Origin: Halomonas sp.
GTDB lineage: Bacteria; Pseudomonadota; Gammaproteobacteria; Pseudomonadales; Halomonadaceae
Length of the DNA stretch: 55,761 bases
NCBI RefSeq assembly: GCF_017515565.1
Contig: NZ_JAFWFN010000028.1
Location: 1 to 55,761 of the forward strand
Direction: 5' to 3'
The notes beneath the pieces were generated by a model, which was not told where the DNA came from, ran no database searches, and saw nothing but the letters and a program-made list of their open reading frames with translations. Shown here piece by piece: positions 41,768 through 49,651 of the stretch. Positions within the stretch are counted from its first letter, which is position 1, and each line of letters begins with the position of its first letter. The position numbers and the translations under genes are program-made.

Positions 41768-43246
41768 TTAATTAAAGACAGTAAAGCTGTCGGCGTTAAG
41801 CCACAGATGCACGATGATACTGGCGACGTAACCGAAAAAAATAACCGGTGCCCATCGTAGGTGGCCCATAAAGGTGTAAGCGCCGCGGGCTTGGCCCATA
41901 ACGGCCACTCCTGCTGCTGAGCCAATAGAGAGTAAGCTGCCGCCTACGCCTGCGGTTAACGTGATCAATAGCCAGTGGCCGTGGGACATTTCTGGCTGCA
42001 TGGTGAGTACGGCAAACATCACCGGTATGTTATCCACCACCGCCGATACGATCCCCAGCACAATATTTGCCCAGGTAGCGTTCCAACCTGTGTAAAGCGC
42101 TTCGGAAAGCAGCCCAAGGTAGCCCATGAAGCCAAGGCCACCCACGCACATCACCACCCCGTAGAAGAACAGCAGTGTGTCCCACTCGGCCCGCGCCACG
42201 CGGTTAAACACATCAAACGGCACTACGCTGCCTAGCTGCTCAAGCTTTTTGTTGTCTCCGCGGCGGCTATAGCGTTCACGCTTGCGCTCCAGCGAGCGGG
42301 GTAGCGTGCGGCGCAAGTAATAGCCAAAGAACTGCAGATAGCCAAGCCCAGTCATCATGCCGAGTACCGGCGGGAGATGCAGCAGCGTATGGCACAACAC
42401 AGCGGTGGTAATCGTCAGCAGGAAAAGCGCGATAATGCGCCGTGCGCCGCGCTTTAGCCATACATCCTCATAAACGCTGCTGGGTTTCTGATCCTTGATA
42501 AAGATGCTCATGATGACGGCTGGAATCAGGAAGTTAACCAAAGAGGGCAGGAACAGGATGAAAAATTCCTGAAACTGAATAAGCCCCGCTTGCCAGACCA
42601 TCAGCGTGGTGATATCGCCGAATGGGCTAAAGGCCCCGCCGGCATTGACGGCCACCACAACGTTAATACAGGCGAGATTAATAAAGCGCTTATCACCTTC
42701 AGCAACTTTGGTGATGACAGCGCACATGAGTAGCGCCGTGGTTAGGTTATCGGCAATGGGAGATAGCACAAAGGCGAGGCCACCCGTTAGCCAGAACAGC
42801 TGGCGGTAGCTAAAGCCTTTACGCAGCATCCATGAGCGCAGCGCATCGAATACCCGGCGCTCTTCCATGGCGTTGATATAGGTCATTGCGACTAGCAGGA
42901 ACAGCATTAGCTCGGTGAACTCCAAAAGGGTTACACGGAACGCGTGTTCTGACGTTTCCGACATACCATTTTGGACGTACACCCAGCCAATGAGTCCCCA
43001 AATGATACCGGCCGCCACCAGCACAGGCTTGGACTTGCGCATGTGGATTTTCTCTTCAGCCATGACTAACGCGTAGGCCAAAACGAAAACTGCTACTGCA
43101 AAGAAGCCGATAACAGACGTGGTTAAATCAATGTCTCCGGTGACGGCAAAAGCCGCAGGGCTTATACCGAGTAGTAAAGCTGCAAACAGAAAAAGCCAGC
43201 GACGAGAAACTCGCGGCTGGCTGGGGTCTTGCTGCAACATCAACAT
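41768..43246 (-). CDS. nhaD: Na+/H+ antiporter NhaD
   Basis: A 492-aa inner-membrane antiporter of the NhaD/ArsB-like ion transporter superfamily with about 12 helices. Conserved elements include FTELMLFLLVAMTYINAMEERRVFDAL, SPIADNLTTALLM, NAGGAFSPFGDITTLMVWQ and DNIPVMFAVLTM. NhaD exports Na+ (and Li+) in exchange for protons and is typical of halophilic and alkaliphilic bacteria such as Vibrio and Halomonas. A 21-base perfect palindrome at 43309-43329 lies about 63 bases upstream. Monocistronic. Confidence 0.95.
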   Translation of the reverse strand: MLMLQQDPSQPRVSRRWLFLFAALLLGISPAAFAVTGDIDLTTSVIGFFAVAVFVLAYALVMAEEKIHMRKSKPVLVAAGIIWGLIGWVYVQNGMSETSEHAFRVTLLEFTELMLFLLVAMTYINAMEERRVFDALRSWMLRKGFSYRQLFWLTGGLAFVLSPIADNLTTALLMCAVITKVAEGDKRFINLACINVVVAVNAGGAFSPFGDITTLMVWQAGLIQFQEFFILFLPSLVNFLIPAVIMSIFIKDQKPSSVYEDVWLKRGARRIIALFLLTITTAVLCHTLLHLPPVLGMMTGLGYLQFFGYYLRRTLPRSLERKRERYSRRGDNKKLEQLGSVVPFDVFNRVARAEWDTLLFFYGVVMCVGGLGFMGYLGLLSEALYTGWNATWANIVLGIVSAVVDNIPVMFAVLTMQPEMSHGHWLLITLTAGVGGSLLSIGSAAGVAVMGQARGAYTFMGHLRWAPVIFFGYVASIIVHLWLNADSFTVFN

Positions 43247-43308
43247 GATGGGTTTTATCCTAATAAAGATTAGAAGGGGAGGGGGTTAATCGCGGCTAGT
43301 TTATCAAT

Positions 43309-43329
43309 CCGTATTGCATTGCAATACGG
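43309..43329. promoter_or_regulatory. perfect palindrome upstream of nhaD
   Basis: CCGTATTGC-ATT-GCAATACGG: two 9-base arms, three-base centre, in an otherwise AT-rich intergenic region. Either an operator for an unidentified regulator of nhaD or a stem in its 5' leader. Confidence 0.6.
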
Positions 43330-43465
43330 AATAAAAACGAATGAAAACCGCTAATAAGGCAGGTATTACGTCTTTTTTTAGAAACTAATTATTTTGCTAA
43401 TGAAAAACATAAGATTTTGTTGAAATAGCTATCGCTGTTATTGCCCGCTACTAGCTACCTACCTA

Positions 43466-44434
43466 CTAATTACGGCGACTATACTCATGCTCTCTGTGAA
43501 GCAGCGCATCCAGTTCATTGCATATGAAGCGTGGCTCGATCCACTGGGCGAGATGTGCGTTGACATAGTGAAGAAAGCGCTGGGCAGACTGTGGGAGCCG
43601 CTGGTCATTGCGGACAATCATCTGCCAGTGGCTTTCAATGGGTAAGCCTTCTACCGGAAGAATTGATATCTCGGGATGCTCGCTGGGCAGCACATGCTCT
43701 GATAACACCGCGACTCCCATACGCGCCGCCACGCCAACGCGAATCGCTTCATTGCTGGCCATTTGCAGGGTTTTTTTCATGGTTAGCCCATGCTCTTGTA
43801 GCCAGCTTTCTAACAGCATGCGCGTGGCTGACCCCGGTTCGCGGAGCAATAAGCGCTCATTGAGCAGCTGCTCCATGGTAATCGATGAGTGCTGTGTAAG
43901 AGGGTGGCCAGCGGCAGCGATGGCCACCAGCGGGTTGCGCATAAAGCGTGCTGCCACGGCATGGGCAAGAGCAGGCGGATGGCTAAATACATAAAGGTCG
44001 TCTTCTTGGCGCTCAAAGCGTGCCAACACTTGGCGGCGGTTGCCAATATGTACCGTTACGTCCACGTCAGGAAACGCCTGGCTAAACGGCCCAAGTAAGC
44101 GCGGCAACACATATTGGGCGGTATTCACCAGGGCAATGCTAAAGCGGCCCTTGCTGCCTTGCTGAAACTCACTGAGCTGATCTGCAAAGTCATCAAAACG
44201 GCCTAATACATCCCGGCTCGCTTGATAAAGCGCCTGCCCGGTGGCTGTCATGGTAAGCCCTTGTAGATGGTGCTCCAGTAATGGGCTACCAACTGCCTCG
44301 CTTAGCCGCTTTAGCTGTTGGGATACCGTTGGCTGGGTGAGGTGCAGCTGTCTTGCGGCTTCGCTGATCGATCCACAGCGCACGACGGTGACATAGACCT
44401 GAAGCAATCTAAATGTCAGGTGGCGAATGTTCAT
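43466..44434 (-). CDS. LysR-family regulator (CbbR/CmpR-like)
   Basis: A 322-aa LysR regulator: winged HTH GSISEAARQLHLTQPTVSQQLKRL at residues ~20-43, then a periplasmic-binding-like effector domain (~95-300). The effector region (RFSIALVNTAQYVLPRLLGPF, HIGNRRQVLARFERQEDDL) resembles CbbR/CmpR/CysB-like carbon-metabolism regulators. It is divergently transcribed from an SbtA-type bicarbonate transporter, which it very likely controls. The C-terminal ~25 residues (REHEYSRRN) extend beyond the usual end. Confidence 0.92.
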   Translation of the reverse strand: MNIRHLTFRLLQVYVTVVRCGSISEAARQLHLTQPTVSQQLKRLSEAVGSPLLEHHLQGLTMTATGQALYQASRDVLGRFDDFADQLSEFQQGSKGRFSIALVNTAQYVLPRLLGPFSQAFPDVDVTVHIGNRRQVLARFERQEDDLYVFSHPPALAHAVAARFMRNPLVAIAAAGHPLTQHSSITMEQLLNERLLLREPGSATRMLLESWLQEHGLTMKKTLQMASNEAIRVGVAARMGVAVLSEHVLPSEHPEISILPVEGLPIESHWQMIVRNDQRLPQSAQRFLHYVNAHLAQWIEPRFICNELDALLHREHEYSRRN

Positions 44435-44478
44435 TGCTTTAGGCTCTCCTGAAGTACCCTTTCGTTACGCCAGCTAGT

Positions 44479-44494
44479 ATAGATGATTATCTAT
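44479..44494. promoter_or_regulatory. candidate LysR operator between regulator and sbtA-like gene
   Basis: ATAGAT-GATT-ATCTAT is an interrupted palindrome in the 142-base divergent intergenic region. Its dyad fits the T-N11-A rule for LysR sites. It is closer to the regulator start (45 bases) than to the transporter (82 bases). Confidence 0.5.
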
Positions 44495-44576
44495 GGCTAT
44501 CTTTCAAGTTATTATTAGTTGTCACCCGTAAATCCCCGCAAAATGCAGCCTCTTTTAACCCTGCGGAGCGTCGGCG

Positions 44577-45518
44577 ATGCCAGATATTGTGGTGATGTTT
44601 TTCTTACTGGGGCTTATAGCAGGGGCGGTGAAGTCAGACCTGCAGGTACCCAAAGCCACCTACGACACGTTAAGCCTACTGTTAATGCTGACCATCGGCT
44701 TAAAGGGCGGTATGGCGCTGCACGGGAATATTCATTGGGGGTTGGTGCCCGAGCTATTAGGCGTTGCGCTACTCTCTGCTTTAACGCCACTGCTGCTAAT
44801 GCCGGTGCTGCGCCGTTGGGTACGCCTTTCCCCGGCGGATAGCGCTAGTATCGCCGCCCACTATGGCTCGGTCAGTGCGGGTACGTTTGCGGTGGCACTG
44901 GCCTATGTGGAGGCGCGGCAGTTGGCCGTAGGCAGTGAAGTCACACTCTATTTAGTGGCCATGGAGCTGCCTGCAATTATGGTGGCTATCGCGCTATTTA
45001 GGCGCTATCAAGGCGCAGCGGTGAAAGAGAGTACTCGTAAGCTCTGGCATGAGACGCTTACCAACCGAGGCGTGATTTTGCTGGCAGGCGGTGTGGTCAT
45101 TGGAACGCTCTACGGGCCCTTTCAAGGGGAAGAAGTCACTGCGCTGTTCACTGGGGCGTTCAAAGGGGTGTTGGCGCTGTTCTTATTGGAAATGGGGTTA
45201 ACCGCTGCACAAACCTTGCGGCCAATGCCCTGGCATCATTGGCGCTTGGTAACTTTCGCCCTAATCACACCGCTGCTGCTATCCATGTTGGGCATTCTCA
45301 TGGGTACGGCATTGGGGCTTCCGGTCGGTTCGGTGGTCATTCTGGCGGCACTTGCCGCAAGCGCCTCCTATATTGCTGCTCCCGCTGCGATGCGCGCTGC
45401 CATTCCCCAGGCCAATATCGGCCTAGCGATGCTTGCCTCACTGGGGATTACCTTTCCGCTCAATGTGATGCTGGGCATACCGCTTTACCATATGCTTATC
45501 GAATTATGGTTGAGTTAG
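44577..45518 (+). CDS. SbtA-type sodium-dependent bicarbonate transporter
   Basis: A 313-aa inner-membrane protein with about ten helices belonging to the SbtA family of Na+-dependent bicarbonate permeases. Motifs include FLLGLIAGAVKSDLQVP, LLLMLTIGLKGG, AAHYGSVSAGTFAVA, FLLEMGLTAAQTL and AAPAAMRAAIPQANIGLAM. It would import bicarbonate for anaplerotic carboxylation. No SbtB-like PII gene is adjacent. GGAG lies eight bases before ATG. Paired with the divergent LysR gene. Confidence 0.92.
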   Translation: MPDIVVMFFLLGLIAGAVKSDLQVPKATYDTLSLLLMLTIGLKGGMALHGNIHWGLVPELLGVALLSALTPLLLMPVLRRWVRLSPADSASIAAHYGSVSAGTFAVALAYVEARQLAVGSEVTLYLVAMELPAIMVAIALFRRYQGAAVKESTRKLWHETLTNRGVILLAGGVVIGTLYGPFQGEEVTALFTGAFKGVLALFLLEMGLTAAQTLRPMPWHHWRLVTFALITPLLLSMLGILMGTALGLPVGSVVILAALAASASYIAAPAAMRAAIPQANIGLAMLASLGITFPLNVMLGIPLYHMLIELWLS

Positions 45519-45615
45519 TGTCCGGTAAGTTAGTCGTTGCTGAGTCGGTCGCTGGGAGGTGCTCGTCGGTATCCTCAATTGACAGCGCCCGTCTCAGCAC
45601 CTAGGGTAGCGGCTG

Positions 45616-45709
45616 TCCTAGGGGAGCCTGCACTGGCTGAGACTCCACCGCCATTTGGCGTTGGTAACCCTTAGAACCTGATCCGGGTCATGCCGGCGAA
45701 GGGAAGGAT
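45616..45709 (+). ncRNA. TPP riboswitch (THI element) of the symporter gene
   Basis: The conserved aptamer is clear: GGGGAGCC, CTGGCTGAGA, a variable P3a hairpin (CGCCATTTGGCG), AACCCTTAGAACCTGATC, then GGGTCATGCCGGCGAAGGGA. P1 is closed by TCCT (45616-45619) / AGGA (45705-45708). It binds thiamin pyrophosphate and should switch off the downstream transporter when TPP is plentiful. Confidence 0.96.
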
Positions 45710-45726
45710 GTAGCCTAACAATACAC

Positions 45727-45792
45727 CCTCTTTGCCTTCGCCTGCCTGCTGTGCTCTCAACTGCACGCCCGGTCTAACAACAGGCAAAGAGG
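45727..45792 (+). promoter_or_regulatory. Shine-Dalgarno-sequestering hairpin, expression platform of the first TPP riboswitch
   Basis: CCTCTTTGCCT (45727-45737) is fully complementary to AGGCAAAGAGG (45782-45792), and the latter contains the ribosome site of the symporter gene (ATG 45803). Without a T-run this implies translational control, the usual mode for proteobacterial TPP riboswitches. Confidence 0.8.
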
Positions 45793-45802
45793 ACCCGCTT
45801 TC

Positions 45803-47248
45803 ATGATGCTTGACCCTATCTGGACTGGCCTGTGGCTGTCGCTATGTGCCGTTGCGCTGGCTGTGCCAGGCCTGCTTTATGCCCGCCGCCATCGCGATAA
45901 TCTTGAAGACTACATCATCGCCCGCAATAGCCAGAATACCCGTGCCACGGTGCTAACACTGGTGGCCACCACGCTGGGCACCTGGATACTGTTTGGCCCT
46001 GCCCAGGCCGCTACCTGGGGTGGCATTGGTGCCGTGCTAGGCTATGCGTTTGGTTCGATGGTACCCAGGCTAGTGATGATTCCCCTTGGTCGACGCATGC
46101 GTGAGTTGATCCCCGAAGGCCATGGCTTGACGGAGTTCGTTATCCACCGTTATGGCCGTACCATGTACGCCTTCACGCTTGTGATTATGCTGTTTTACCT
46201 CTTCATTTTGTTGGCCGCTGGGCTCACCGCTGTTGCCCGCATGGTGGGGCTGCTGGCCCCTATTCCGCTGTGGGTAACCGCCAGTGTGGTGATGGTCGCC
46301 ACGTTGATTTATACCTTTTACGGCGGCCTGCGCGCGTCCATTTACACGGATAAGCTACAGATGGTGGTGATTATGCCCCTGCTAGGGCTGCTGCTGGTGT
46401 TTGGCTGGCAAGCTGCCGGTGGCGTTGCGCCTACGTTGGCAGGGCTTGCCGAGAGTGCGCCACAGCTGCTGCAGGTGAGTGATATAGGCGGTATACGCGC
46501 AGGGTTAACGTTCTTTCTTGCCGTAGCGCTTACCGGGCTCTTTTACCAAGGTACATGGCAGCGCATTTATGCAGCGAAAGATACCAAGGTGCTGCGCCGT
46601 GGCTTCTGGATTAGCGGTGTGTGTAGCTTCATCGTGGTGGCGTTGATGGGCCTATTTGGGTTGGCCTTTGTAGGGCTGGGGCTTGAAGGTGACGGCTCTG
46701 TGGCGCTGTTTAGCGTGCTATTGGCGGATGTCCCGTTATGGTTCGCTTTAGCGCTGGTGCCGTTGGGTCTTGCTTTGGTGATGAGCAGTGCCGACTCTAC
46801 GATTAGCGCAACGTCGAGCATTATTGCCGTGGATATGGGGCGGTTACTCCCCAACGCCAGCAGTGCATCATTGATGAGCATGTCACGCTGGTTGATTGTA
46901 TTGGCCGCCATCCCCGTTACCTGGGTCGCCTCCCAGGGGTACAGCGTGCTTTATCTGTTTTTGCTCGCTGATTTGCTCTGCTCGGCCGCTGCATTCCCGG
47001 TGTTTTTTGGGCTGTTCTATCGCCGTTACACGGGCCTTAACGCGGTCATCAGTACCGCGCTGGGGCTGGTGGCGGGTTTGGCAATGTTCCCCGCACCAGG
47101 AGGCAGTACGGCAACCTTATTGGAGTCTTTCCTACTAGCGGCACTGGTGCCTGTGGTGGTGTCGTTGCTGCTCTTACGTGTACTGCCTTCTCGTGAAGCG
47201 TATGACTTTAGCCTGTTACACACGGCAGTGCGCCGCTTTAAAGGGTGA
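45803..47248 (+). CDS. sodium:solute symporter under TPP control, probable thiamin-precursor transporter
   Basis: A 481-aa SSS-family symporter with about 13 helices. It contains LEDYIIARNSQN after the first helix, GPAQAATWGGIGAVLGYAFG, the family motif region FYGGLRASIYTDKLQM, GLFYQGTWQRIYAAKD and VMSSADSTISATSSIIAVD (sodium site serines). The TPP riboswitch points to a thiamin-related substrate. SSS symporters with THI elements have been called ThiV and proposed to carry the pyrimidine precursor HMP. Whether this carries HMP, thiazole or thiamin is inferred only. Convergent with the SDR/monooxygenase unit. Confidence 0.9.
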   Translation: MMLDPIWTGLWLSLCAVALAVPGLLYARRHRDNLEDYIIARNSQNTRATVLTLVATTLGTWILFGPAQAATWGGIGAVLGYAFGSMVPRLVMIPLGRRMRELIPEGHGLTEFVIHRYGRTMYAFTLVIMLFYLFILLAAGLTAVARMVGLLAPIPLWVTASVVMVATLIYTFYGGLRASIYTDKLQMVVIMPLLGLLLVFGWQAAGGVAPTLAGLAESAPQLLQVSDIGGIRAGLTFFLAVALTGLFYQGTWQRIYAAKDTKVLRRGFWISGVCSFIVVALMGLFGLAFVGLGLEGDGSVALFSVLLADVPLWFALALVPLGLALVMSSADSTISATSSIIAVDMGRLLPNASSASLMSMSRWLIVLAAIPVTWVASQGYSVLYLFLLADLLCSAAAFPVFFGLFYRRYTGLNAVISTALGLVAGLAMFPAPGGSTATLLESFLLAALVPVVVSLLLLRVLPSREAYDFSLLHTAVRRFKG

Positions 47249-47249
47249 G

Positions 47250-47322
47250 CGCCCGGCAGCCGACTTAACGCGTGATAATACGGCCGCCCGGTACTGGTTA
47301 CGCTGCCGGGCGTGGCAGCCCC
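47250..47322. repeat. 11-bp inverted repeat spanning the convergent gene ends
   Basis: CGCCCGGCAGC (47250-47260) and GCTGCCGGGCG (47312-47322) flank 51 bases, starting right after the symporter stop and reaching into the 3' end of the monooxygenase gene. It may form an mRNA 3'-end stem for either transcript. There is no T-run. Confidence 0.5.
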
Positions 47323-48590
47323 AAATGGTCTCGCAACGTGCTACCCGTGTACTCGCGCCGGAATAGGCCGCGAGCCTGCAGCAGCGGGACTACCTGGTCG
47401 ATAAAGTCGTCGATACTACCCGGCAGCGTCGGCGGCATCAGGTTAAAGCCGTCGGCACCACCTCTCTCTACCCAGCGCTGCATTTCATCAGCAATCTGTT
47501 CTGGCGTACCTACCATGGTGCAGTGGCCGCCGCCGGCGGCCAGCCTGCCTAATAGTTGCCGTAACGTGGGTGTTTCGCTTTCAATAATGCGCAAAATGGT
47601 GGCATAGCGTCCTTTAGGCCCAGCAAAAGCCTCCAGTGGTGGCAGTTCTGGTAACGGTGCATCCAGCTCCCAGTGGCGGCAATCCTGACCGATAAATTGG
47701 CTTAACTGGTGAAGTGAATCTTCGGTGGGTAAACGCTCATCCAATTCACGTTGTTTGGCTTTTGCAGCCGCCTCGGTAGAAGCTACATAAGTGACCAACC
47801 CAGGCATAATCGCCACTGGCGCTCGGCCAGCCGCCCGCACGCGGGCTTGAATGTCTTGGTAGTAGGCTTGCGCTGAAGGGAGGTCGTACGCCACCGCGTA
47901 AATCGCTTCTGCATAATGCGCTGCCAAGTTGCGTCCCGGTTCAGAAGCACCCGCTTGGAACAGCACGGGATGCCCCTGAGGAGGTCGCGGCACGGTTAGC
48001 GGGCCATCCACCAGAAAATGTTCGCCATGATGGGCAATAGGCCGCACTTTGCTGGGGTCGGCAAAGAACCCCTGACGGTCGTAGCGCAGCGCATCATCCG
48101 CCCATGAATCCCATAGCGCTAACACCGTTTGTACAAACTCTTCGGCACGGGCGTAGCGCATCTGCTGAGGAGGCATGGCCTCCCAGCCATGGTTGCGCGC
48201 TTCGCTATCAAACATCGAGGTGACTAAGTTCCACCCCATTCGGCCGTTAGAAATATGGTCTAACGAAGCGAGCATTCGCGCCGCATGAAAAGGGCTGAAG
48301 AACGTGCTGGATATCGTCGAGATCAGGCCGATGTGTTCGGTGGCGCGCGCCATAGCGGATAGCGCCGTCAACGGTTCTAAAAACCACTGCGGCCCTCCGC
48401 CAACGTTGCCTGCGGCATGGCCATCGGCAAAAAAGACGGCGTCTAATTTTCCGCGTTCAGCGGTGCGTGCCAACGACTCATAATAGCGAATGTCGCCCAT
48501 GCGCTCGGCAGAAGAGCCTGGCTCGCGCCAAGCCGCCTTGTGGTGCCCGCAGCCCATGATAAAAAGATTGAGATGCATCGGTGTGGTCAT
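47298..48590 (-). CDS. LLM-class FMN-dependent monooxygenase (NtaA/SnaA/DszA type) in a TPP-controlled operon
   Basis: A 430-aa bacterial-luciferase-like monooxygenase of the NtaA/SnaA/DszA/MoxC group. Landmarks: FFADGHAAGNVGGG, GRMGWNLVTSMFDSEARNHG, a long DRQGFFADPSKVRPIAHHGEHF insertion typical of this group, HPVLFQAGASEPGRNLAA and the C-terminal MVGTPEQIADEMQRWVERGG. It uses FMNH2 (from a separate reductase) and O2 to oxidise or cleave C-S, C-N or aromatic substrates. Its ATG overlaps the SDR stop codon (TAATG), so it is coupled to it and under the same TPP riboswitch. The substrate is unknown; a sulfur-containing thiazole or damaged thiamin is a reasonable hypothesis. Confidence 0.9.
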   Translation of the reverse strand: MTTPMHLNLFIMGCGHHKAAWREPGSSAERMGDIRYYESLARTAERGKLDAVFFADGHAAGNVGGGPQWFLEPLTALSAMARATEHIGLISTISSTFFSPFHAARMLASLDHISNGRMGWNLVTSMFDSEARNHGWEAMPPQQMRYARAEEFVQTVLALWDSWADDALRYDRQGFFADPSKVRPIAHHGEHFLVDGPLTVPRPPQGHPVLFQAGASEPGRNLAAHYAEAIYAVAYDLPSAQAYYQDIQARVRAAGRAPVAIMPGLVTYVASTEAAAKAKQRELDERLPTEDSLHQLSQFIGQDCRHWELDAPLPELPPLEAFAGPKGRYATILRIIESETPTLRQLLGRLAAGGGHCTMVGTPEQIADEMQRWVERGGADGFNLMPPTLPGSIDDFIDQVVPLLQARGLFRREYTGSTLRDHLGLPRPAA

Positions 48591-49372
48591 TAGTTCTTAA
48601 CCAGGCCGCCATCGACCACCAAGTTTTGGCCGGTGACAGCCCGACTCCAAGGCGATGCGAAAAACAGCGCTGCATCCGCAAACTCTTCAGGGGTAGTGAC
48701 GCGGCGCAGTGGGGTGTTGGCAGCGATGAGGTCGAACACCGCTTCAGGCGTAGCCGCTGAGGCATCGGTGGTGCGCAGCAGCCCGCCCGAGAGCATGTTC
48801 ACCGTAATGCCGTCAGGCCCCAGGTCGTTGGAAAGCGTGCGGGTGAGCGATAGCAGCGCCGCCTTGGCAGCGGTGTAATCGTGGTAAGGCACGACCGGAT
48901 TTTGAAAGAGGTTAGTGCCAATATTGATAATCCGCCCAGTACCCTGTTCGCGCATGCCGGGTAGCGCCGCTTGAATGGTGTTGAGCGCGCCACGTGCCAC
49001 GCCCTGCAGCTGCTGGTCGAGGTTTTCCCAGGTGAGTGTGTCTGGGGTTGGGCGGGCGTCGCCGTTAAACGAAAAATCCGGCAGGGCGTTGTTAATCAGC
49101 GTGGTAACCGGCATGCCAAAATGTGCTTGCGCGGTGGTGAACATCGCCTTCACGGCCTCTGGGTCACGCACGTCGGCTTGTATCGCTAGCGCGCGCTCAG
49201 GGGCGTGTGCCGCTAGGGCTTTCGCCGCGTCAGCGCTGTTTAAGTAGTTCACGATAACCCGCGCGCCCTGGGCTAAAAACGCGTGCGCCAGGCACGCGCC
49301 TAGGCCACGGCTAGCGCCGGTGATCAACACAAGTTGCTGGGAAAGCGGGAGTGCGGTGGGTGTTGTTGGCAT
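48590..49372 (-). CDS. SDR-family oxidoreductase directly behind a TPP riboswitch
   Basis: A 260-aa short-chain dehydrogenase. Cofactor motif TGASRGLG, LINNAL, active-site YTAAK, C-terminal TGQNLVVDGG. It is close to FabG-like classical SDRs. At the position of the catalytic Ser (13 residues before Tyr) I count a Thr (NIGTN), an unusual but possibly functional replacement. NADP preference is suggested by the Arg in the glycine loop. ATG 49372 follows AGGGA; the frame opening at 49417 runs into the riboswitch region and is rejected. First gene of the two-gene unit with the flavin monooxygenase. Confidence 0.9.
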   Translation of the reverse strand: MPTTPTALPLSQQLVLITGASRGLGACLAHAFLAQGARVIVNYLNSADAAKALAAHAPERALAIQADVRDPEAVKAMFTTAQAHFGMPVTTLINNALPDFSFNGDARPTPDTLTWENLDQQLQGVARGALNTIQAALPGMREQGTGRIINIGTNLFQNPVVPYHDYTAAKAALLSLTRTLSNDLGPDGITVNMLSGGLLRTTDASAATPEAVFDLIAANTPLRRVTTPEEFADAALFFASPWSRAVTGQNLVVDGGLVKN

Positions 49373-49382
49373 TATGGTATTT

Positions 49383-49401
49383 CCCTCGTAAAGGGCGAGG
49401 G
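49383..49401 (-). promoter_or_regulatory. Shine-Dalgarno hairpin of the second TPP riboswitch
   Basis: On the minus strand CCCTCG-CCCTTTA-CGAGGG forms a stem that contains the ribosome site of the SDR gene. Also CCGGTAT (minus strand at 49406-49412) can pair with ATACCGG in the aptamer 3' arm (49446-49452), a plausible switch between bound and free states. Confidence 0.7.
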
Positions 49402-49433
49402 ATGCATACCGGCCCATTGCAGGGCATTAGTGT

Positions 49434-49515
49434 GACATCCCTTCGCCGGTATGAACTGGATCAGGTTCAGCGGGTCTTATCTCAGCCCTGGCGTAACGCC
49501 AGGACACCCCGTGTC
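49434..49515 (-). ncRNA. TPP riboswitch (THI element) of the SDR-monooxygenase operon
   Basis: On the minus strand: CACGGGGTGTCC, then AGGGCTGAGATAAGACCC, GCTGAACCTGATCC and CATACCGGCGAAGGGATG. These are the conserved blocks of the TPP aptamer in order, closed by GACA/TGTC. It lies 62 bases before the SDR start and should repress the unit when TPP is high. Confidence 0.96.
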
Positions 49516-49651
49516 GTTTGTTGAATGTATCCTAACTGATAATCTTGCTCGATTCATACCACAGGGCCAAAACCAATGGCCAACCCCGAGCTTTCGAATC
49601 GTGCTGAGGGTTAGCGTATCCTTGGATCGGCAGTATCAAATCCGCTAGTGC

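Follow-up and report, generated by a model that had tools for sequence, protein, structure and literature searches.

A symporter and a coupled dehydrogenase-monooxygenase pair behind TPP riboswitches as a putative module for the pyrimidine half of thiamin

The Halomonas sp. contig NZ_JAFWFN010000028.1 (assembly GCF_017515565.1; 55,761 nucleotides, all of which is called the window here) carries two facing transcription units, each behind a thiamin pyrophosphate (TPP) riboswitch: a sodium/solute symporter (SSS) gene on the plus strand (45803..47248; PF00474, 72.9 bits, cut-off 22.8) and, on the minus strand, an operon for a short-chain dehydrogenase/reductase (SDR; 48590..49372) and a luciferase-like FMN-dependent monooxygenase (LLM; 47298..48590). 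On balance we favor reading the three genes as one TPP-repressed module for the pyrimidine half of thiamin. That the module serves pyrimidine acquisition is likely. The chemistry we propose for it, oxygenation by the LLM followed by reduction by the SDR to hydroxymethylpyrimidine (HMP), is offered tentatively. Equally tentative is the wider proposal of an aerobic route to the vitamin B1 pyrimidine, made up of symporter, LLM and NADPH-dependent SDR, that would suffice to replace ThiC and would have passed horizontally between Proteobacteria and Actinomycetota.

Both aptamers in the window are complete: in an RF00059 covariance search each covered model positions 1-105 of 105 and scored above the Rfam gathering score of 54.3 bits. 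The element before SDR-LLM (49421..49521, minus strand; 67.5 bits, E = 3.6e-11) was already recognized as a full TPP aptamer in a preliminary description of the locus, which placed its end at 49515 where the match reaches 49521; the second element, before the symporter gene (45610..45721, plus strand; 73.7 bits, E = 1.1e-12), had been overlooked together with that gene. GGCTGAGA is the conserved core of the TPP elements of the leaders. On the 3' side of the SDR-LLM aptamer, folding and coordinates place a hairpin with a 7-bp stem (TCCCTCG-CCCTTTA-CGAGGGA, 49402-49382, minus strand) that encloses the Shine-Dalgarno sequence (SD) of the ATG at 49372, as the preliminary description had proposed. 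A 9-nt candidate anti-sequestor on the same strand, GCCGGTATG (49413-49405), pairs perfectly with CATACCGGC inside the aptamer (49453-49445) by sequence and duplex folding; RNA free of TPP could form this alternative pairing, which would leave the SD accessible. Read from the sequence, the geometry of this leader is that of a translational OFF switch. In the symporter leader, the SD AAAGAGG is buried by the 11-bp stem (45727-45737 with 45782-45792) of a predicted hairpin (45727..45792, plus strand; folding and coordinates). The stop codon of the SDR gene (48590-48592) and the ATG of the LLM gene (from 48590) overlap by one base (TAATG), in keeping with the coupling suggested earlier, and the two units are convergent with 49 bp between their stop codons. 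The ATG at 49372 appears a likelier SDR start than the listed 49417, because the latter lies upstream of the hairpin.

The three genes were followed through 151 genomes of the window's family, Halomonadaceae. An LLM of at least 70% identity was present in 13 genomes, and six others held LLMs of 39-44% only. The SDR (E 1e-70) was found in exactly the same 13 genomes, and the module SSS (E 1e-80) in 12 of the 13 and in no other. Given this co-occurrence, SDR, LLM and SSS behave within the family like a single functional unit. We examined the regions of 12 carriers, the window being the thirteenth, and eight loci holding 10 of 11 more distant LLMs. An SSS gene behind a TPP riboswitch faced a riboswitch-controlled SDR-LLM operon in 12/13 carriers, the exception being genome G017 (discussed below), and no TPP riboswitch was found in any of the eight loci with more distant LLMs.

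The association extends beyond the family. Among the best 80 of 343 LLM relatives in a collection of named genomes (71-87% identity, spanning Proteobacteria and Actinomycetota), the SDR gene was adjacent in 73 loci, a riboswitch preceded the operon in 67, and 66 loci contained an SSS gene, which had a riboswitch in 65; every one of the 80 had a riboswitch in front of SDR-LLM, of SSS or of both. The riboswitches were scored with a covariance model derived from 27 elements, and Rfam confirmed the element in each of the nine loci submitted (eight from Actinomycetota, one from Marinomonas). The pair thus recurs behind THI elements elsewhere, as the preliminary description had anticipated, and the argument against salvage that it had named, a pair lacking THI elements in nearly all relatives, finds no footing in these 80 loci. 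Five plasmid records contained an LLM above 60% identity, and all three plasmids examined (two from Pseudochrobactrum, 69%; one from Rhodococcus, 63.6%) carried SDR-LLM with a riboswitch. In the examined loci the riboswitch link therefore spans LLM identities from 63.6% to 87% and two phyla, except for G017 and 13 Achromobacter operons. Besides SDR, LLM and SSS no conserved neighbor gene was found; the next cluster occurred in 25 of 91 loci, and it and later ones were taken as close kinship or chance frames.

A chance riboswitch at SDR-LLM was considered and is excluded by the density of such elements in the window's genome (five per 3.75 Mb by RF00059) and by their presence at 0/8 distant-LLM loci vs 80/80 loci of close relatives. 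A 67-row LLM tree joined G017 and the 54 TPP-linked rows in a single 55-row clade (support 100/99, branch length 1.32), separate from 12 more distant LLMs; long branches occur in this tree, chiefly within the distant set, and its root is the midpoint only. Because G017 sits inside this clade, the riboswitch label needs two changes on the tree. Apart from G017, Halomonadaceae fall into two groups, which suggests that the module has moved horizontally.

Individual loci showed further features. In G146 (L032:7735-8953) a gene reading as an IS110-type transposase stands between LLM and SSS, both riboswitches being kept, and the LLM-SSS gap of G013 (L034:7523-7855) contains, by eye, an apparent degraded second SSS fragment. 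On the Pseudochrobactrum plasmids (L152:1945-4955 and L154:1836-4847) a TPP-dependent enzyme annotated as acetolactate synthase is encoded near SDR-LLM, as is a TRAP transporter binding protein of the TAXI type, which Pfam classes as NMT1-like in L152.

The thiamin genes of the carriers indicate which half of the vitamin is concerned. In the family, thiC had no match in 17/151 genomes, two genomes with a broken or partial thiC being counted as positive. It was missing in 8/13 carriers vs 9/138 non-carriers (Fisher p = 4.2e-6), and stratification by genus (g1, g19 and g20) retained the excess (exact p = 0.0013; 7 observed vs 2.5 expected); the tallies for both tests were counted by hand. Completeness of the eight thiC-less family carriers is 99-100%. 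In a set of 63 carriers (13 of the family and 50 of the 80 named loci), thiG was kept in every genome, each match at E 1.3e-81 or better, while thiC was missing in 20. The gap in carriers therefore lies on the pyrimidine side. A thiD match was found in all 20 thiC-less carriers, 18 of them over the cut-off. The thiamin salvage role suggested in the preliminary description thus gained support from comparative genomics far beyond the window, and its choice of 'thiazole or pyrimidine' is narrowed to the pyrimidine. The window's own organism keeps tenA-thiC. In one genome that lacks the module (G137:C1:489100-490451), thiC appears fragmented, and some of the fragments contain internal TGA stops.

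Inability to make the thiamin pyrimidine is common among microbes, which are known to get round this gap by HMP uptake or through the hydrolase TenA. How thiC-less genomes cope was examined by RF00059 searches of six of the eight thiC-less family carriers and all nine thiC-less non-carriers. In five of the six carriers the module SSS was the only transporter seen behind a riboswitch, and in two of them, G013 and G073, the only riboswitches found were the two of the module. All nine non-carriers had a different, stand-alone transporter behind a riboswitch and no SDR-LLM. In seven it was another SSS-type protein, six copies being 69-93% identical to the seventh (L166), which in turn is 34% identical to the module SSS over 455 positions; one copy (L192) had no Pfam match at E 1e-5, the riboswitch of another (G051) scored 53.4 bits, just below the gathering score, and in G039 the SSS gene is followed by a TENA_THI-4 gene. 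The remaining two had an ABC system; in G107, Pfam confirmed its binding protein as NMT1/THI5-like. To make up for absent thiC, genomes thus have either just a transporter or the module transporter together with two redox enzymes. The simplest reading is that the substrate of the module is not HMP and needs conversion.

The strongest competing explanation, which we nevertheless consider unlikely, is that the symporter imports HMP itself and alone replaces ThiC, SDR-LLM doing other work such as clearing toxic pyrimidine analogues or oxidized thiamin. The precedent is ThiV of SAR11, given as an HMP transporter in portions of PMC11452348 and PMC12637900; in the former, SAR11 is an HMP auxotroph in which this SSS protein, likely an HMP importer, is encoded behind a putative TPP riboswitch. 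Like ThiV, the module SSS belongs to the SSS family and has an upstream riboswitch, and it shows distant homology (34%) to the stand-alone SSS of genomes with neither thiC nor the module. Unlike ThiV, however, it comes with a redox pair, and in the 151 genomes it was never found without SDR-LLM (E 1e-80). Conversely, in 14/80 loci the riboswitch was kept by SDR-LLM (in one locus by LLM alone) with no SSS gene in the fetched locus, two of the 14 being on contigs that end beside the operon.

The SDR falls within NF006393/PRK08642 (438.5 bits, cut-off 292), a model named '3-oxoacyl-ACP reductase', and fails the FabG model TIGR01830 (124.2 bits, cut-off 297.75). The family name implies fatty acid synthesis, whereas the genome context of the module SDR implies thiamin. 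Residues were surveyed in 95 SDRs from 102 loci, near-duplicates included (6 of the 12 family loci are also named loci, e.g. Halomonas and Vreelandella). Alignment to solved SDRs places Thr at the catalytic Ser position in 95/95, extending an observation made earlier for the window protein. The YxxxK motif (Y166 and K170) was kept in all 95, and the catalytic Asn position (125) held Val in 55, Ile in 15, Thr in 13, Ser in 9 and Cys in 3, and Asn in none. An Arg in the TGxxRG motif and an Asn after strand 2, which we take to be NADPH-type features, were likewise present in 95/95.

A second alternative, improbable in our estimation, is that SDR-LLM make HMP from a common metabolite outside thiamin metabolism, for example a vitamin B6 compound, as an oxygen-dependent bypass of ThiC. 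It would account for the frequent absence of thiC where thiG and thiD are kept; pyridoxal 4-dehydrogenase is among the four solved relatives of the SDR at E 1e-28, and the G017 pair has nearby genes that look, by eye, like pdxT-pdxS. The SDR nevertheless stays far below the cut-off of the pyridoxal 4-dehydrogenase family (133.4 vs 325 bits), the pdx neighborhood was noticed in that one genome only, and a dedicated importer accompanies the pair in 66/80 loci.

The LLM matches TIGR03860 over its full profile (positions 1-422 of 422; 532.2 bits, cut-off 279.7), which bears out its earlier assignment to the NtaA/DszA type, here NtaA/DmoA, and it is below the equivalog cut-offs for RutA (62.9 of 498.3 bits), SsuD (53.3 of 510 and 52 of 518.2) and SfnG (84.3 of 382.95). 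The best PDB match of its predicted structure (pLDDT 87.4) is BdsA, and CmoJ, nitrilotriacetate (NTA) monooxygenase, EmoA, DmoA and riboflavin lyase match as well. NTA monooxygenase, BdsA, CmoJ, DmoA and EmoA share its TIGR03860 family by score and its fold, at 35-39% identity; to our knowledge none of them is riboswitch-controlled or related to thiamin. The riboflavin lyase RcaE has the same fold and is an LLM acting on a vitamin, yet it is only 30-31% identical, and RcaE degrades riboflavin whereas the context of the module points to salvage.

That SDR-LLM are a sulfonate or aminopolycarboxylate catabolic pair caught by chance behind a THI element is very improbable. Two LLM relatives at 50% identity have no TPP riboswitch, one of them adjoining a gene that resembles, by eye, an ABC substrate-binding protein, and G017 (70%) also lacks the element; against these stands the riboswitch link from 63.6% to 87% identity in two phyla, G017 and the 13 Achromobacter operons aside, because of which ordinary sulfonate or NTA catabolism is disfavored. 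Just as remote is action on the thiazole side: the pair adjoins thiazole genes in Glaciibacter, but thiG is missing in 0/63 carriers vs thiC in 20/63, and on this ground thiazole repair was rejected. In that thiC-less Glaciibacter the neighbors of the TPP-controlled SDR-LLM are thiG, a thiO-like gene, a gene that reads by eye as thiE, and a permease gene, likewise TPP-controlled, of PF09819, the family of YkoE.

For the module as a pyrimidine supply we propose the following sequence of events. At low TPP, both riboswitches would free the ribosome-binding sites of the symporter gene and of the SDR-LLM operon, as expected for the riboswitch class. The symporter would import a pyrimidine that does not serve as HMP without conversion; it is probably a degraded or modified thiamin pyrimidine whose C5 methylene bears a group X. 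The LLM may then use FMNH2, supplied by a cellular reductase outside the module, to oxygenate this methylene and expel X, giving the 5-formyl pyrimidine; we infer this step from the reactions of NTA monooxygenase, CmoJ and riboflavin lyase. NTA monooxygenase takes off an N-substituent oxidatively, and NTA and EDTA monooxygenases and riboflavin lyase are among the enzymes of C-N or C-S bonds; CmoJ and BdsA are described as acting at C-S bonds. The SDR, for which NADPH use is predicted, would reduce the aldehyde to HMP, ThiD would phosphorylate it and ThiE would join the product to thiazole made de novo. The module would thereby replace ThiC where thiC is absent and provide an extra supply in the window's organism.

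Candidates for X are an amine, a formamide, a sulfonate (from sulfite cleavage of thiamin) and the thiazole itself. YlmB-TenA salvage feeds HMP to ThiD from degraded thiamin pyrimidine, and the module would likewise feed HMP to ThiD from breakdown products. TenA, unlike the module, is a hydrolase and involves no redox step. A TENA_THI-4 protein was found in 42/63 carriers, some matches being weak (~E 1e-11), and had no match in 8 of the 20 thiC-less carriers. We lean away from the amine as sole substrate because TenA already covers it in many carriers. Recycling of aminomethylpyrimidine (AmMP) by TenA is discussed in part of PMC12236431, where AmMP, HMP and carboxythiazole (cHET) are given at picomolar levels in seawater.

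Several observations weigh against the module as proposed. G017 (L041) has SDR-LLM and keeps thiC; no TPP riboswitch was found there even at E 10, and no SSS in the 14-kb region or, at E 1e-80, in the genome. The 13 loci with no riboswitch before the operon are all from Achromobacter, which has it on the SSS gene only, and an adjacent SDR is missing from six of them. Five of these six genomes encode the SDR elsewhere, with no riboswitch within 1.5-kb flanks, and the sixth, an assembled metagenome, gave no SDR match at E 1e-60. The thiC-less carrier G099 has both SSS types. Because thiC is kept in 43/63 carriers, the module would often be an addition, and the named genomes behind the thiC counts include assemblies for which no completeness is stated. 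Of the 20 thiD matches, two fall below the cut-off. No flavin reductase was found among the conserved neighbors of the module loci. With Ser replaced by Thr and Asn by Val, Ile, Thr, Ser or Cys, the direction of the SDR reaction, and even its activity, must be regarded as unproven. The frequency of TENA_THI-4 proteins argues against an aminopyrimidine as the only substrate.

Two of these exceptional groups have neighbors worth recording. SDR-LLM of G017 (L041:4173-11470) adjoins an AbrB-family protein gene and a NUDIX gene, and the genes reading as pdxT-pdxS, with a MocR-type regulator gene (by eye), follow about 2 kb further. In the five Achromobacter genomes with an SDR apart from LLM and SSS (L130-L133 and L135), the SDR gene of L130 comes after one reading as a GntR/FadR-type regulator.

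Next to HMP uptake and TenA, a redox module conserved behind TPP riboswitches would be a third way round a missing pyrimidine. If correct, it implies that the environment contains a thiamin-related compound possibly missed by current assays, and that the SDR, whose present annotation is that of a fatty-acid enzyme, would be renamed. The three genes could also serve as markers when B1 needs are predicted from genomes, because absence of thiC alone would class carriers as HMP auxotrophs. Literature searches returned no paper linking SDR or LLM to thiamin, although these genes might be mentioned in papers behind subscription, the THI-element survey of 2002 among them. In the main text of a TPP-regulon survey (PMC3766115) the words 'monooxygenase', 'oxidoreductase' and 'thiV' are absent, and neither 'monooxygenase' nor 'dehydrogenase' is present in the accessible text of PMC2258182. 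A search with the gene name oarX gave unrelated papers.

Beside the module, window positions 41768-45518 hold a gene for an Sbt_1 bicarbonate-type transporter and a divergent gene for a CbbR-like LysR regulator (below the CbbR model cut-off), with a membrane protein gene beyond them. Elsewhere, a TPP riboswitch in G000 (C17:79094-79198, minus strand; 69.3 bits) lies ~70 nt before a GAF-PAS-GGDEF gene (L003:2-1432), an unusual target that would tie the level of vitamin B1 to cyclic di-GMP.

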